Under the pieces are notes generated by a model, which was given only the letters and a program-made list of their open reading frames with translations, was not told the DNA's origin and made no database searches. From Citromicrobium bathyomarinum (GTDB taxonomy: Bacteria; Pseudomonadota; Alphaproteobacteria; Sphingomonadales; Sphingomonadaceae), in NCBI RefSeq assembly GCF_021021475.1, contig NZ_JAINWL010000003.1:62001-126000 (forward strand): a stretch of DNA of 64,000 bases, read 5' to 3'. Shown piece by piece: positions 37,144 to 41,436 of the stretch. The stretch's first letter is position 1. Every line of letters begins with the position of its first letter. The position numbers and the translations under genes are program-made.

Positions 37144-38514
37144 TTAGCGGGTCGCGACCCGGCGGCCCGCGTCGAGCGTGCCGGGCAGCGGCCTGCTCTG
37201 TTCCCACGCGATGCAACCGTGACCGGCGGCCTTGACCGTGCGGCACAGCGACTGCGCGCTCGATGCGGCAAGATTGCCGGCCGACAGGCGGTAATAGATC
37301 TGCCCGTTGACCTTGGCGCGGGTGATCACCTGCTCGCGGCTTGCGACCTGCGGGTGGCGTTTGACGAAGATCGCCCAGCCGCGCTTGGCATCGGCTTCGC
37401 TGCCATAGCTGCCCAGCTGCACCAGGTGCGTGCCGCCTGCGAGGTCTTCGCGCGCTGCGGAGGCCGATGTCTGGGCGGGCTTGGCTGCCGCAACCGGCGC
37501 GGGCGCAGGCGCGGCTCGCGCAGGGATCGACTGGACCACCGGTGCGCTGGCGAAACTTGCAGCGGGCGCAGGTTTGGGCGCGGGCTTCGACGTGGCCGGG
37601 GCCTTCGCATCCGCCTTGGCAAAGGTGCTGTCGAATTCGGTCGAGACCGTATCGCGCGCGCCCACCGCAGCGTCGAGCGGGGCGAGCGAACGTGCCGCTC
37701 CGCTGGAAGCAAGCAGATCGACCGGCGGAAGTTCGCCCGTGACCGGGCTCGCGGCAGCGGTTGCTGCGGCAGCCTTTGCGAGCATCTGATCCGCATTCGG
37801 AGCGCCGCCCAGCGCCAGTTGCGCGGGCATGCCGGAATCGGCCTGCGGCTGCACGCCGAGCAGGTTGGCGATGCGGGCGGTGTAGTCTTCCGGCCGGGCG
37901 ACGCGCGCCCATTCGGAAATGCGCGCATCCAGCTCACCCGGGGCGACGTCTTCTGCGGCGATGATCCGCGCGGCGGCCCAGTTGCCGCCCAGCGCGTAGG
38001 CATAGGCGAGGTTCTGGCGCATGGTCGGAGTATTCTCCCCGCCACGCAACGCGTTCTGCATGATCTGTGCGCCCAGTTCGGGATTGCCCGCCAGCGCGTA
38101 GGCGAGGCCCAGATCGGCCGGAGCGATCGCGTCACGCCATTCGCCCAGCGTCTCGATCGCGGCGCGGTTGTCACCCAGCGCGATCGAGGCGAGTGCATAG
38201 CGCAGCGCAGTGCGCGGGCTCACATCGCCGAGCACCAGCGCCTCTTCAAGCGCCTGCTGCGCGGATGCGAAGCGGCCCGCCGCGAGGTAGGAGGAGCCGA
38301 GCTCTGCCTTTGCCGCCGGATCATTCGGCGCGGCGAGCACGGCCTGTTCGGCCAGGGTGACTGCCCTGTCGGTATTGCCGTCGGCGCGGGCCGTGGCGGC
38401 GTCGCTGGCCGATGCGGTTTTCGCACCGCCGATACCGCCTGCGCAGCCAGTCAGGCCGAGCGTGGCCAGCGCGGTGGCAAGCATCAGGGTTTTGGAAAAG
38501 TTCTGGCGGATCAT
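37144..38514 (-). CDS. TPR and SPOR-domain lipoprotein
   Basis: The product has 456 residues. ATG 38514 has AAGGAGGG upstream and gives a lipoprotein signal (LATLGLTGCAGG). TPR-like helical repeats follow (about residues 30-180, with AVLAAPNDPAAKAELGSSYL and ALRYALASIALGDNRAAIET). A Pro/Ala linker leads to a C-terminal SPOR domain (about 375-445: HLVQLGSYGSEADAKRGWAI ... YYRLSAGNL). SPOR domains bind denuded septal peptidoglycan. It is the last gene of a ParA / RHH / SPOR operon, and its start lies 4 bases after the RHH stop. A role at the division site is inferred. Confidence 0.9.
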   Translation of the reverse strand: MIRQNFSKTLMLATALATLGLTGCAGGIGGAKTASASDAATARADGNTDRAVTLAEQAVLAAPNDPAAKAELGSSYLAAGRFASAQQALEEALVLGDVSPRTALRYALASIALGDNRAAIETLGEWRDAIAPADLGLAYALAGNPELGAQIMQNALRGGENTPTMRQNLAYAYALGGNWAAARIIAAEDVAPGELDARISEWARVARPEDYTARIANLLGVQPQADSGMPAQLALGGAPNADQMLAKAAAATAAASPVTGELPPVDLLASSGAARSLAPLDAAVGARDTVSTEFDSTFAKADAKAPATSKPAPKPAPAASFASAPVVQSIPARAAPAPAPVAAAKPAQTSASAAREDLAGGTHLVQLGSYGSEADAKRGWAIFVKRHPQVASREQVITRAKVNGQIYYRLSAGNLAASSAQSLCRTVKAAGHGCIAWEQSRPLPGTLDAGRRVATR

Positions 38515-38518
38515 CGGT

Positions 38519-39181
38519 TCATCCCTCCTTGTGGGGGCGCGATTGGACGCGGGCGACAAGCTGTTCGAGCTCGGGTGTGGCGGCGAACATGGCGTCCACC
38601 GCTTCGGTGACGAGCGCTTGCGCGCTCCGGTTGGCGAGCGTGCAGGCCAGCCGCAGCTTGAGATGACGCTCTGGGTCCAGGCGCAGCGTGAAGGCGGTGC
38701 GCTTGCCCTTCGTTGCGGCCTTTGCTCCGCCTCTGACCTGAGGTGCGCTGGCGACCGCAAGACTGGGACGCGGGAGGCGCGGGGCCTTGGTGCGAACGGC
38801 CGCGACCGGTTCGGCTACGTCCGGCTCGCTGGGAGTTTCGTCGGCGCGATCCTGCTCAGGTGCGGTCTCATACGTGGGCGCGGCTGTGCTGCGCGTGTGC
38901 TTGCCAAGCGGGGCGAACGCGCTGTCCGGCGCGTCTTCGGCGGCATCGTGATAGTCGGCTGGCTGAGCGGTCTCGCGCGCGACCGGCTGCGTATCGCCGG
39001 GTTCGCCCAGATCGTTCCAGCCCAGATCCTCTAGCGCACTCTCCGCCGTCAGCGGGTGCTGCATGTGCGCCCCCGCGACTGTGCCATCGACCATCGGCGA
39101 CTGACGGCGCATGGCCGGTTTCGCGCCGCCCTTGCGGGCAAGCAGGCCGGGGGAAAGCGAGGCAAAGCTCATGTCGGTCAT
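38519..39181 (-). CDS. Ribbon-helix-helix-like partner protein of ParA
   Basis: The product has 220 residues. The first 150 are acidic, low-complexity and probably disordered. The C-terminal 65 residues form a basic strand-helix-helix: KRTAFTLRLDPERHLKLRLA then NRSAQALVTEAVDAMFA. This resembles ribbon-helix-helix DNA-binding domains or the CopG/MetJ group. It lies between a ParA ATPase (11-base gap) and the SPOR lipoprotein. By analogy to ParA partner proteins it could bind DNA or stimulate the ATPase (inference). No ParB or parS is seen. Confidence 0.75.
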   Translation of the reverse strand: MTDMSFASLSPGLLARKGGAKPAMRRQSPMVDGTVAGAHMQHPLTAESALEDLGWNDLGEPGDTQPVARETAQPADYHDAAEDAPDSAFAPLGKHTRSTAAPTYETAPEQDRADETPSEPDVAEPVAAVRTKAPRLPRPSLAVASAPQVRGGAKAATKGKRTAFTLRLDPERHLKLRLACTLANRSAQALVTEAVDAMFAATPELEQLVARVQSRPHKEG

Positions 39182-39192
39182 GCCCGGTGCAC

Positions 39193-39906
39193 CTACTGCG
39201 CGACCCGGCGGCCGAACACGCCCTGGCGCGGGGCCTGCGGCAGGTGGGCCGCCGCGCCGGGTGCGGCGAAGACCGTCCGGCGGAAGTTCTTTTCCAGCCG
39301 GTCGGACACGTAATTCCACAGCGCGGCGATCTCCGTCGCGCTACGGCAATCGGGATCGATTTCCATGACCGTGCGGCCGTCGATCATCGATGCGGCGAAA
39401 TCGGTCCGGTGATGGACGGTCACCGGAGCGACGGTGCCGTGCTGGCTCAGCGCGACCGCCGCTTCCGAAGTGATGCGCGCCTTGGGTGTCGCGCCGTTGA
39501 CCACGAAGACCAGTGGCTTGCCCGCGCGTTCGCACAGGTCGACCGTCGCGCCGACCGCCCGCAGGTCGTGCGGGCTGGGACGGGTCGGCACGACGATCAG
39601 TTCTGCAACCGAAATGACCGACTGGATCGCCATCGTGATGGCGGGCGGGGTGTCGATGACGGCAAGCTTGAAGCCCTGTTCGCGCAAGGTGTGAAGATCA
39701 TGCGCGAGCCGCGCGACCGTGGTCTGCGCGAAGGCCGGATAATCCGCCTCGCGCTCGTTCCACCAGTCCGCCAGCGAGCCCTGCGGATCGATATCGATCA
39801 GCACCACCGGCCCCGCGCCTGCACGCTGGGCCTGGACTGAAAGATGGCCGGACAAGGTGGTCTTGCCCGATCCGCCCTTCTGTGAAGCCAATGCCAATAC
39901 CCGCAC
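39193..39906 (-). CDS. Orphan ParA/MinD-family ATPase
   Basis: The product has 237 residues from GTG 39906, with GGGGGAAC upstream. The deviant Walker A motif QKGGSGKTT is at about residues 9-17, VLIDIDPQGSLADWW carries A', and LAVIDTPPA is Walker B. It has no membrane-targeting amphipathic helix at the end. Together with the RHH and SPOR genes it forms a chromosomal set distinct from a ParABS locus. An alternative start, ATG 39969, adds 21 residues without a ribosome binding site. Likely role: positioning of an envelope or DNA-bound cargo. Confidence 0.88.
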   Translation of the reverse strand: MRVLALASQKGGSGKTTLSGHLSVQAQRAGAGPVVLIDIDPQGSLADWWNEREADYPAFAQTTVARLAHDLHTLREQGFKLAVIDTPPAITMAIQSVISVAELIVVPTRPSPHDLRAVGATVDLCERAGKPLVFVVNGATPKARITSEAAVALSQHGTVAPVTVHHRTDFAASMIDGRTVMEIDPDCRSATEIAALWNYVSDRLEKNFRRTVFAAPGAAAHLPQAPRQGVFGRRVAQ

Positions 39907-40125
39907 CGGGACTGTTCCCCCAATTGTTGCACGTCCCGCATCGTTCACCCGCAAACGGGTTCGATGCACGCGTATGGCTTCGCAGGATGTCCTTTATTTA
40001 GGGTTAAGGCAGGGAAGGCCGATCGCTCGGCATATCGAGAAAGGCGGACGGTAAAGTCGGGCTGCCAAAGCGTCGCACAACGGGGCGGGGCGTTGGTACG
40101 GCGTGGCGAGTGGTTCGCAAGGGTG

Positions 40126-40141
40126 GTAATGGCGGGTTAAC
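40126..40141 (+). promoter_or_regulatory. Near-consensus CtrA site
   Basis: GTAATGGCGGGTTAAC fits TTAA-N7-TTAAC with one mismatch in the first half. It lies 57 bp before the Sel1/SPOR gene and in the divergent region to the ParA operon. The call is motif-based only. Confidence 0.4.
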
Positions 40142-40197
40142 CATCTCCCGCTAGCGCGGAGGGTGAACACGTGCGATCGGCAATGAGGGGGAACACC

Positions 40198-41436
40198 ATG
40201 ACGACGCGAAACGGTCGCAAATTCGGCCTCCGGGCGTGCCTTGCAGGCGCATTGTTGACCCTGCCGGGGCTGGCGCTGGCCGACGTCAATGATGGCGTCG
40301 CCGCGTGGGAGCGGGGGGATTACGAGACCGCCGTTGCCGAGTGGCGCGGACCTGCCGGGCAGGGCGATGCCGACGCGCAGTTCAACCTGGGCCAGGCCTA
40401 TCGCCTCGGCCGCGGGGTCGAACAGAACACCCGCCAGGCCGAAGTCTATTACGCAAAGGCCGCGGCGCAGGGGCACCTGAAGGCGGCGGACAATCTGGGC
40501 CTGCTGCTGTTCCAGAACGGTCGCCGCGAAGAGGCGATGCCCTACGTCGTCGATGCGGCCGAGCGCGGCGATCCGCGCGCGCAATATCTGCTGGGGATCG
40601 CGCATTTCAACGGCGACCTGGTCGCGCGCGACTGGGTGCGTGCCTATGCGCTGATCACGCTCGCCAATGCGGCTGGCCTGCCGCAGGCGGCCAGCGCGAT
40701 GCAGCAGATGGACACGCATATCCCGCTCGACCAGCGCCAGCAGGCGCAGGCGCTGGTGCCGCAGTTGAAACGCAATGCCGATGCGCAGCGCGCGAGCCGC
40801 TTTGCCGCCGCCGATCTGGGCACGGGCGACGCCTCACCCTCGCGCTCCGCATCTACTCCTGCTGCCGCTCCGCCTGTGACCGCCACCGCGTCCGGCGCTT
40901 CGGCGGCGGGCCGCCCGGACCGTATCCCGCGGCCCATCGCTCAGACTCGCGTGGCGCCTTCCGTCGCCGCTGCACAGTCCGCCATTGCCGAGGCTAGCCG
41001 CGTGACCGGAACCGAAAGCCCGGCGGATGCGGGTGCGACTTTCGCGCGTCGCAGCACGCCCGCTGCCGATCCGCGCGCGGTCGAGCCGCAGCCGACCACG
41101 CCGGTCGTCGCGCGCGCCGCCCCGCAACCGCGACCCGAGCCTCGGCCCGAGCCGCGTGTCTCACCGCGCCCCGAACCGCAGCCCGCGCCCGTGCGGGCGG
41201 CTGCGGGCAGCGGGCCCTGGAAAATCCAGCTCGGCGCCTTTGCCGTCAATGGCAATGCGGAGCGTCTGTGGGCGCGCCTTTCGGGGCGGAGCGAGCTTGC
41301 CGGGGCGACCCGCGTGCTCGAACCTGCGGGCCGCGTGACCAAGCTGCTTGCTGGCGGCTATGCCAGCCGCGATGCGGCGCAGAGCGCGTGCAATGCGCTC
41401 AAGCGCAGCGGGCAGGACTGTCTCGTCACTCGCTAG
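40198..41436 (+). CDS. Secreted Sel1-repeat and SPOR-domain protein
   Basis: The product has 412 residues from ATG 40198, with GAGGGGGA 6 bases upstream. The signal peptide ends at LPGLALA. Sel1-like repeats follow (about residues 30-140: GDADAQFNLGQAYRLGRGVE, GDPRAQYLLGIAHFNGD). Next is a long Pro/Ala/Arg/Glu-rich linker (about 195-330), then a C-terminal SPOR domain (WKIQLGAFAVNGNAERLWAR ... LLAGGYASRDAA). It is divergent from the ParA/RHH/SPOR operon, so two SPOR proteins flank the same ParA. Septal or peptidoglycan localisation is expected for SPOR proteins. Confidence 0.9.
   Translation: MTTRNGRKFGLRACLAGALLTLPGLALADVNDGVAAWERGDYETAVAEWRGPAGQGDADAQFNLGQAYRLGRGVEQNTRQAEVYYAKAAAQGHLKAADNLGLLLFQNGRREEAMPYVVDAAERGDPRAQYLLGIAHFNGDLVARDWVRAYALITLANAAGLPQAASAMQQMDTHIPLDQRQQAQALVPQLKRNADAQRASRFAAADLGTGDASPSRSASTPAAAPPVTATASGASAAGRPDRIPRPIAQTRVAPSVAAAQSAIAEASRVTGTESPADAGATFARRSTPAADPRAVEPQPTTPVVARAAPQPRPEPRPEPRVSPRPEPQPAPVRAAAGSGPWKIQLGAFAVNGNAERLWARLSGRSELAGATRVLEPAGRVTKLLAGGYASRDAAQSACNALKRSGQDCLVTR

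Follow-up and report, generated by a model that had tools for sequence, protein, structure and literature searches.

A type Ib-like ParA and ribbon-helix-helix module in a SPOR operon of Citromicrobium bathyomarinum, with an N-terminal tag as a probable movable cargo adaptor

A stretch of 64,000 nucleotides from the alphaproteobacterium Citromicrobium bathyomarinum (bases 62001-126000 of contig 7, in a genome of 3.2 Mb and 13 contigs; hereafter the window) contains a gene for a ParA ATPase, followed by those of a ribbon-helix-helix (RHH) protein and of a lipoprotein with a SPOR domain, with a second SPOR gene on the other side of parA. We consider it probable that ParA and the RHH protein make up a chromosomal module of type Ib, akin to plasmid ParF and ParG, in which a short N-terminal tag of the RHH protein is a movable cargo adaptor, and that this module is deployed with septal-wall proteins. 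The tag, ASLxxxLLARKGxAxPA, had been overlooked in an earlier, sequence-only reading of this DNA; as judged from its distribution in sequences, it is most likely a ParA-docking peptide, reused on DNA-binding and on wall-binding adaptors. The relevant features of the window are as follows.

37144-38514, minus strand: TPR-SPOR lipoprotein of 456 residues, third gene of the likely operon (Pfam TPR_19 1.3e-6, SPOR 5.6e-6; lipobox LTGC seen by eye).
38519-39181, minus strand: tagged RHH protein of 220 residues, putative ParA partner and DNA-binding adaptor (invariant motifs in 30 relatives; RHH fold from AlphaFold and comparison with the PDB).
39110-39163, minus strand: DNA for the RHH protein's N-terminal tag, ASLSPGLLARKGGAKPAM, at residues 7-24 (tag profile A4).
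39193-39906, minus strand: ParF-like ParA ATPase of 237 residues, with the deviant Walker A motif KGGSGKTT (PDB 4dzz, ParF; NCBIfam).
39914-40194, no strand assigned: intergenic region between the divergent genes, containing GGGKGAAC four times, a possible lineage-specific operator (motif count).
39993-40007, minus strand: TTAACCCTAAATAAA, degenerate version of the family upstream element TTAA-N7-TTAG (one mismatch to TTAA-N7-TTAA).
40126-40140, minus strand: TTAACCCGCCATTAC, second degenerate copy of TTAA-N7-TTAG (motif comparison).
40198-41436, plus strand: divergent Sel1-SPOR protein of 412 residues, signal peptide seen by eye (Pfam SPOR 7.8e-15, Sel1 3e-12).

Reading frames, Pfam and structure comparison confirm the four genes at the places that the sequence-only reading had given them. 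The gaps being only 11 bp between parA and the RHH gene and 4 bp between the latter and the TPR-SPOR gene, these three are likely to form one operon, and the co-transcription proposed in that reading holds to this extent; the Sel1-SPOR gene, said there to face the operon, points away from parA, the two being divergent (back to back) and not convergent. The GTG at 39906 is the likely start of parA, because several relatives start at the same residue. Pfam supports a ParA-type ATPase domain in its product, the best match of which in the PDB is plasmid ParF (4dzz, E 1.3e-14); with 29 members of the family this product shares 83-90% identity. As expected of type Ib, this ParA is small (237 residues), has a deviant Walker A motif (KGGSGKTT) and no N-terminal helix-turn-helix (HTH), and the gene of an RHH partner adjoins its own downstream. 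A tree built from 45 ParA rows unites those of the Sphingomonadaceae type in a single clade (support 98/90), and the eight included ParAs that have SPOR partners split into two groups, deep support being weak. Elsewhere a second parA-like gene, with the variant Walker region CQKGAAGKTT, lies immediately upstream of parA (L110:5361-6035). At L219 the ParA was seen by tblastn and missed by a pattern search.

The RHH protein matches Pfam below threshold (16.2 bits, for a cut-off of 27.2), and its nature has to be approached through structure. AlphaFold models a confident C-terminal domain (about residues 160-200), with most of residues 1-155 disordered at low confidence. Compared with the PDB, this domain matched mostly RHH proteins at modest Z scores (maximum 5.3), among them the ParB of pCXC100 together with antitoxins and repressors; such a comparison cannot separate antitoxins, CopG, Arc, PutA and ParB/ParG from one another, and it also lists non-RHH chains (McdB). 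A profile search of PDB sequences gave three matches, all weak, at E 0.19 (an RHH protein, entry 2kel), 0.41 (plasmid ParG) and 0.53, the last a RAP80 chain that is unrelated. In 30 relatives the protein is conserved in three blocks only, namely the N-terminal tag, the motif DLGWNDMG and the RHH domain, and among the 76 named loci that have a tag frame, 64 show the DLGWNDMG pattern. Its N-terminus is modelled as disordered and is conserved, with a lysine invariant in the 25 tags that were aligned; in type Ib systems a flexible N-terminus of the partner activates the ATPase. The ParA had been taken for an orphan; it is not one, since the RHH protein fills the partner's place. Likewise the statement that there is no ParB has to be amended: the RHH protein occupies the place of ParB as it does in type Ib, and a separate, canonical parB stands elsewhere in the genome, on another contig (C1:1507225). 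With a partner that is RHH and not an HTH-type ParB, and a locus that is not near the origin, the module differs from canonical ParABS; nor does it resemble a type II toxin-antitoxin pair, the neighbours of the RHH gene being those of ParA and TPR-SPOR and not a cognate toxin. Many distant tagged RHH proteins terminate in C-x-C (CACL, CPCL, CVCL, CQCL, CNC or CGC; L064, L065, L066, L067, L070, L077, L084, L204, L223), an ending that was not seen among the Sphingomonadaceae RHH sequences read.

Relatives of this ParA were found on 537 plasmid records at E <= 1e-20, and the five homologues opened, out of 25 listed, all have a tag-like, RHH-like frame after parA as judged by eye, two of them without a gene for that frame in an incomplete annotation table. 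These relatives put the module with the type Ib partition systems, and suggest that the chromosomal parA-RHH pair is a domesticated version of a plasmid-type system. Three plasmid partners with a tag-like start and an RHH-like end are annotated as hypothetical (L239:2156-2500, L241:2153-2410, L243:2223-2486). The same plasmid relatives speak for an explanation that we hold to be unlikely, though it is the strongest of the rivals: a domesticated partition locus that lies within a pair of Sel1-SPOR and TPR-SPOR genes might be functionally unlinked to them and simply be carried along by shared transcription.

Conservation of the cluster is a point against such passive carriage. Of the genomes sampled in the order, 220 of 296 contain the RHH sequence, and in most of the sampled Sphingomonadaceae the module would be a fixed part of the chromosome. 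The cluster recognised in the sequence-only reading proves conserved: among 20 family regions that were extracted, with the window's own counted in, 19 contain the whole set of four together and the twentieth is cut by a contig end, and 67 of 80 named loci match all four, with the reservation that in two of these one SPOR match is oddly placed and may be a cross-hit between SPOR domains. The standard order is kept in 65 of the 80, also with other flanking genes; among the other 13 loci, three, of which one lies at a contig end, have only three of the genes, and ten come from other groups. Further away, Kordiimonas has parA-RHH, Sel1-SPOR and TPR-SPOR together, and an Emcibacteraceae genome has parA-RHH-TPR-SPOR, which again speaks against a mere passenger.

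The tag itself can be followed well beyond this family. Its profile (A4) has 27 positions and 25 rows, one of them the window's own tag; K-G-x-A-x-P is invariant in it, and the lysine is kept in all rows. Searched against the window's own genome, the profile retrieved the RHH protein at E 5.9e-13 and nothing better than 0.87 thereafter; the RHH protein was the sole tagged protein found, the two further matches being at chance level, and the tag is absent both from the genome's own FtsN-like SPOR protein and from the window's two SPOR proteins. Across the class, an RHH profile found matches in 35 of 389 genomes, and 22 of the 23 distant loci read have a ParA, many of these loci sharing an N-terminal LLARKGxAxPA. 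The tag profile reached 53 of the 389 genomes at E <= 0.02, in 61 places, of which 53 were examined; the remaining eight comprise seven weak ones (E >= 0.003) and one, in G402, that scores like that of G302. A ParA is present at 52 of the 53 places, as detected with ParA queries that included some taken from those same loci. Because 15 of these places supplied rows of the profile and hence lay beside ParA by choice, the fair figure is 37 of the 38 places outside the profile. A script sorted the 53 places into 34 RHH, 10 SPOR, 3 other and 6 without class, using local RHH and SPOR profiles built in part from the proteins then classified and accepting RHH up to E 1. Seen by eye, the six unclassed places are a tag-transmembrane (TM)-SPOR protein (G520), two tag-RHH proteins (G526, G581), a locus cut by a contig end (G464), one in which no tag was found (G392) and a chance match without ParA (G030:C5). 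A search of literature text for the literal string LLARKG found nothing relevant.

Eleven SPOR proteins headed by the tag, none of which had entered A4, were found in six families of Alphaproteobacteria (f9, f15, f67, f81, f91, f99), with a common architecture: tag, disordered-looking stretch, one hydrophobic helix, linker and SPOR domain. Pfam confirmed the SPOR domain, independently of the local profiles, in all nine that were tested. One of the named loci, L109, combines this architecture (SPOR 4e-14) with an adjacent Sel1-SPOR gene on the other strand, and three genomes (G448, G386, G462) have both tag-RHH and tag-TM-SPOR places. The tag further occurs at L086 on a protein that resembles an HTH protein by eye, and at L112 on a protein (P0007) that has a TM helix and no Pfam SPOR match. 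As the tag is N-terminal and disordered, keeps its lysine in the aligned rows and almost always lies beside a ParA, on partners that otherwise differ, we infer that it docks on ParA and activates its ATPase. Its junction with SPOR domains in other families argues against a locus foreign to the wall. We take the whole for a type Ib ParA/RHH partition variant, the adaptor tag of which is reused on transmembrane SPOR proteins.

Several other partners and neighbours deserve mention. In a Rhodospirillaceae metagenome-assembled genome a CheY-type receiver domain (L112:7574-8134, Pfam 5e-17), with the N-terminal tag SLLARKGDAAP, adjoins ParA, and at L192 (G540) and at L107:8742-9278 (a Kiloniellaceae genome) the ParA-adjacent partner has a tag and a probably helical domain. 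In several families the gene of a PAS_5-like protein stands beside parA-RHH (L093:8309-9421, L090:7748-8398, L095:6371-7147, L101:6580-7272, L113:8692-9525, L108:6036-6929), with a weak Pfam match in three cases and none in three; the related N-terminal motif of several of these neighbours, ASLxxIxVRRP, is possibly a second ParA-docking peptide. DUF2336 proteins, assigned by Pfam in two cases and grouped by BLAST in the rest, are encoded no more than about 6 kb from parA in several families other than sphingomonads (L103:9830-10978, L089:3430-4893, L091:8495-9652, L100:1628-2725, L101:11433-12542).

A number of observations weigh against the module as we understand it. On the side of partition, the window's ParA scores 163.6 bits against the NCBIfam model ParA_partition (NF041546), under its cut-off of 180; no tandem repeat was found in the region upstream of the window's parA, and 7- and 8-mer repeats upstream in 87 relatives show a slight excess only, with no centromere-like array found. 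On the side of the tag, 336 of the 389 genomes sampled in the class gave no match. On the side of the wall, there are family genomes in which the cluster is incomplete. Twenty have no RHH hit and were likewise negative in the RHH-profile search, and, a point in favour of the module, in 19 of them no ParA of orthologue strength was found (five have weaker relatives, at 113-130 bits); against it, G125 retains ParA with no detectable RHH protein. In seven (G132, G183, G210, G213, G222, G225, G229) TPR-SPOR and Sel1-SPOR are directly adjacent, without a ParA orthologue, so that the SPOR proteins do not always depend on ParA; this existence of the pair without parA-RHH weakens the case for direct coupling in the family, and it speaks for a domesticated, unlinked locus. 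So does the fragment of parA left in G229 (58 residues, 69% identity), from which we conclude that the gene was lost there. Pointing the opposite way, a Sel1-SPOR relative stands beside pyrC in seven others (G105, G121, G133, G193, G233, G245, G247), at which parA, RHH and TPR-SPOR were jointly undetected; this agrees with gain or loss of the operon as a whole, and argues against mere cohabitation. The remaining five RHH-less genomes (G155, G201, G238, G239, G241) were placed in no class.

The chromosomal address of the module, which is not a fixed one, also weighs against it and bears on another explanation. In 25 single-contig genomes the RHH locus lies at 0.23-1.0 of half a chromosome from parB, with a median of 0.53, as computed with genome lengths that are rounded or approximate in 17 of the 25 and with a near value for G273. 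These distances, from related genomes, are not uniform (Kolmogorov-Smirnov p 0.012), because no locus is origin-proximal; spread as they are, they led us to reject a locus fixed at the origin or at the terminus. One might think of a link between a chromosomal region and the septum in the manner of MatP or ZapT, the RHH protein binding scattered sites that ParA or another partner would tie to division. The RHH fold, the SPOR neighbours and the second conserved motif, DLGWNDMG, agree with it, and the lack of a fixed place relative to parB does not, although a gene need not adjoin the sites of its product; on balance we find this idea very improbable.

The DNA upstream of parA has to be considered in its own right. 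An exact TTAA-N7-TTAG lies there in 71 of 87 family regions, which are related sequences (0-1 in ten shuffles), and 55 of the 57 TTAAC-N6-TTA[GA] sites in 1.05 Mb (70 loci) are at most 260 bp upstream of parA. The element is kept in four of the seven genomes that have the SPOR pair without parA-RHH, two of these four having the fuller TTAAC-N6-TTAG, and it is therefore more likely to serve the promoter of the operon or of the SPOR genes than the RHH protein, of which we reject it as an operator; since it need not serve RHH, its survival also lends something to the unlinked locus. TTAA-N7-TTAA is a CtrA consensus, and a CtrA site is possible. A strict form, TTAACC-N5-TTAGG, was found at seven places in six genomes, with five of the seven lying upstream of the cluster's parA, for two in a reversed control, counts that fall short of demonstrating a CtrA regulon. 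In the window, four of the six GGGKGAAC copies of the 64 kb are in the divergent intergenic region, symmetrically placed (39914-39921 and 39943-39950 on the minus strand, 40161-40168 and 40187-40194 on the plus strand), a pattern found after the fact; shuffled windows contained 3.25 copies on average and 12 of 100 of them reached six, and the outer copies overlap ribosome-binding-site positions. Limited to the window's lineage, GGGKGAAC is rejected as an operator conserved in the family. These symmetric copies, together with the antitoxin and repressor matches of the RHH fold, would suit an RHH protein whose main task is to repress transcription from the divergent promoters, so that it controls the SPOR genes and is itself tuned by ParA. 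We judge this to be decidedly improbable: the copies lack conservation across the family, the TTAA element survives the absence of RHH in those four genomes, and the tag is also carried by membrane SPOR proteins, by the receiver protein and, by eye, by the HTH-like one.

Coming back to a type Ib module with a movable tag, we may ask what it resembles. With ParF-ParG-parH of TP228, and type Ib generally, it shares a small ParA without N-terminal HTH and a downstream RHH partner with a disordered N-terminus; it differs from them in being chromosomal and retained in one place across the family, with a longer partner that has two extra conserved motifs, no centromere array found, a SPOR gene in the operon and a tag in common with membrane SPOR proteins. 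Several ATPases of the ParA/MinD group are described as having partners in which an N-terminal charged peptide addresses the ATPase and the remainder the cargo (PMC10241942). McdA, ParC and PpfA are the likeness there, with a cargo adaptor so divided (PMC10241942); there each ATPase has a dedicated partner of its own, whereas here a single tag is shared by RHH, TM-SPOR, receiver and HTH-like proteins encoded next to related ParAs. The bitopic SPOR proteins FtsN and RgsS have, like tag-TM-SPOR, a cytoplasmic N-terminus, one TM helix, a periplasmic linker and a SPOR domain (the topology is inferred), and tag-TM-SPOR differs by the tag at its start and by the adjacent parA. The links between terminus and Z-ring, MatP-ZapB and ZapT, also tie a DNA-binding protein to division, as described in PMC7188993; ParA does not figure in that description, and the window's locus has no fixed location at the terminus. 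No described system of ParA, RHH and SPOR was found in the open-licence literature, preprints excluded and judged mostly from listings, and within that scope nothing contradicted the view that no characterised system has this exact make-up.

How could such a module work? With ATP bound, ParA is expected to cover the nucleoid, and the disordered tag of the RHH protein would dock on it and elicit ATP hydrolysis, the lysine of the KG pair being a candidate for the residue that activates; the cargo, most simply DNA, would be held by the RHH dimer at the C-terminal end and thereby be moved. In the lineages where the tag heads single-pass SPOR proteins, the related ParA would act on a cargo attached to septal peptidoglycan. 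To the eye, both SPOR proteins of the window have export signals (a lipoprotein signal in TPR-SPOR, a cleavable signal peptide in Sel1-SPOR), and they would lack the cytoplasmic N-terminus and single TM helix of FtsN-like proteins; they account for two of the six SPOR matches of the genome. Because of this apparent export, and because the RHH protein alone is tagged, no physical bridge is visible there, and coupling to the wall is by operon and neighbourhood only: positioning of DNA or other cargo would be deployed alongside septal-wall proteins from one transcription unit. Thus the coupling of nucleoid to septal wall that had been proposed for this cluster stands in part, with a conserved ParA-RHH pair in a SPOR operon and, elsewhere in the class, tag-TM-SPOR proteins beside ParA, a link of the sort then envisaged; it is not borne out as a direct bridge in the window, and seven genomes keep the SPOR pair without ParA.

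A bolder view, which we put forward tentatively and as rather less likely than the module itself, is that one tag is a plug-in code for alphaproteobacterial ParA motors, the RHH protein carrying DNA, the TM-SPOR protein reaching septal peptidoglycan, and the Sphingomonadaceae using it in coordinating nucleoid and septum. If the tag is a docking code of ParA, a single peptide would predict what many as yet unassigned ParAs on chromosomes carry. To our knowledge, a ParA with a transmembrane SPOR partner would be the first motor of its kind to be attached to the peptidoglycan of the septum. If this is how tag-TM-SPOR is to be read, a gradient of nucleoid-bound ParA would position the division wall or be positioned by it, and this would bear on the way in which nucleoid and septum are coupled in bacteria.

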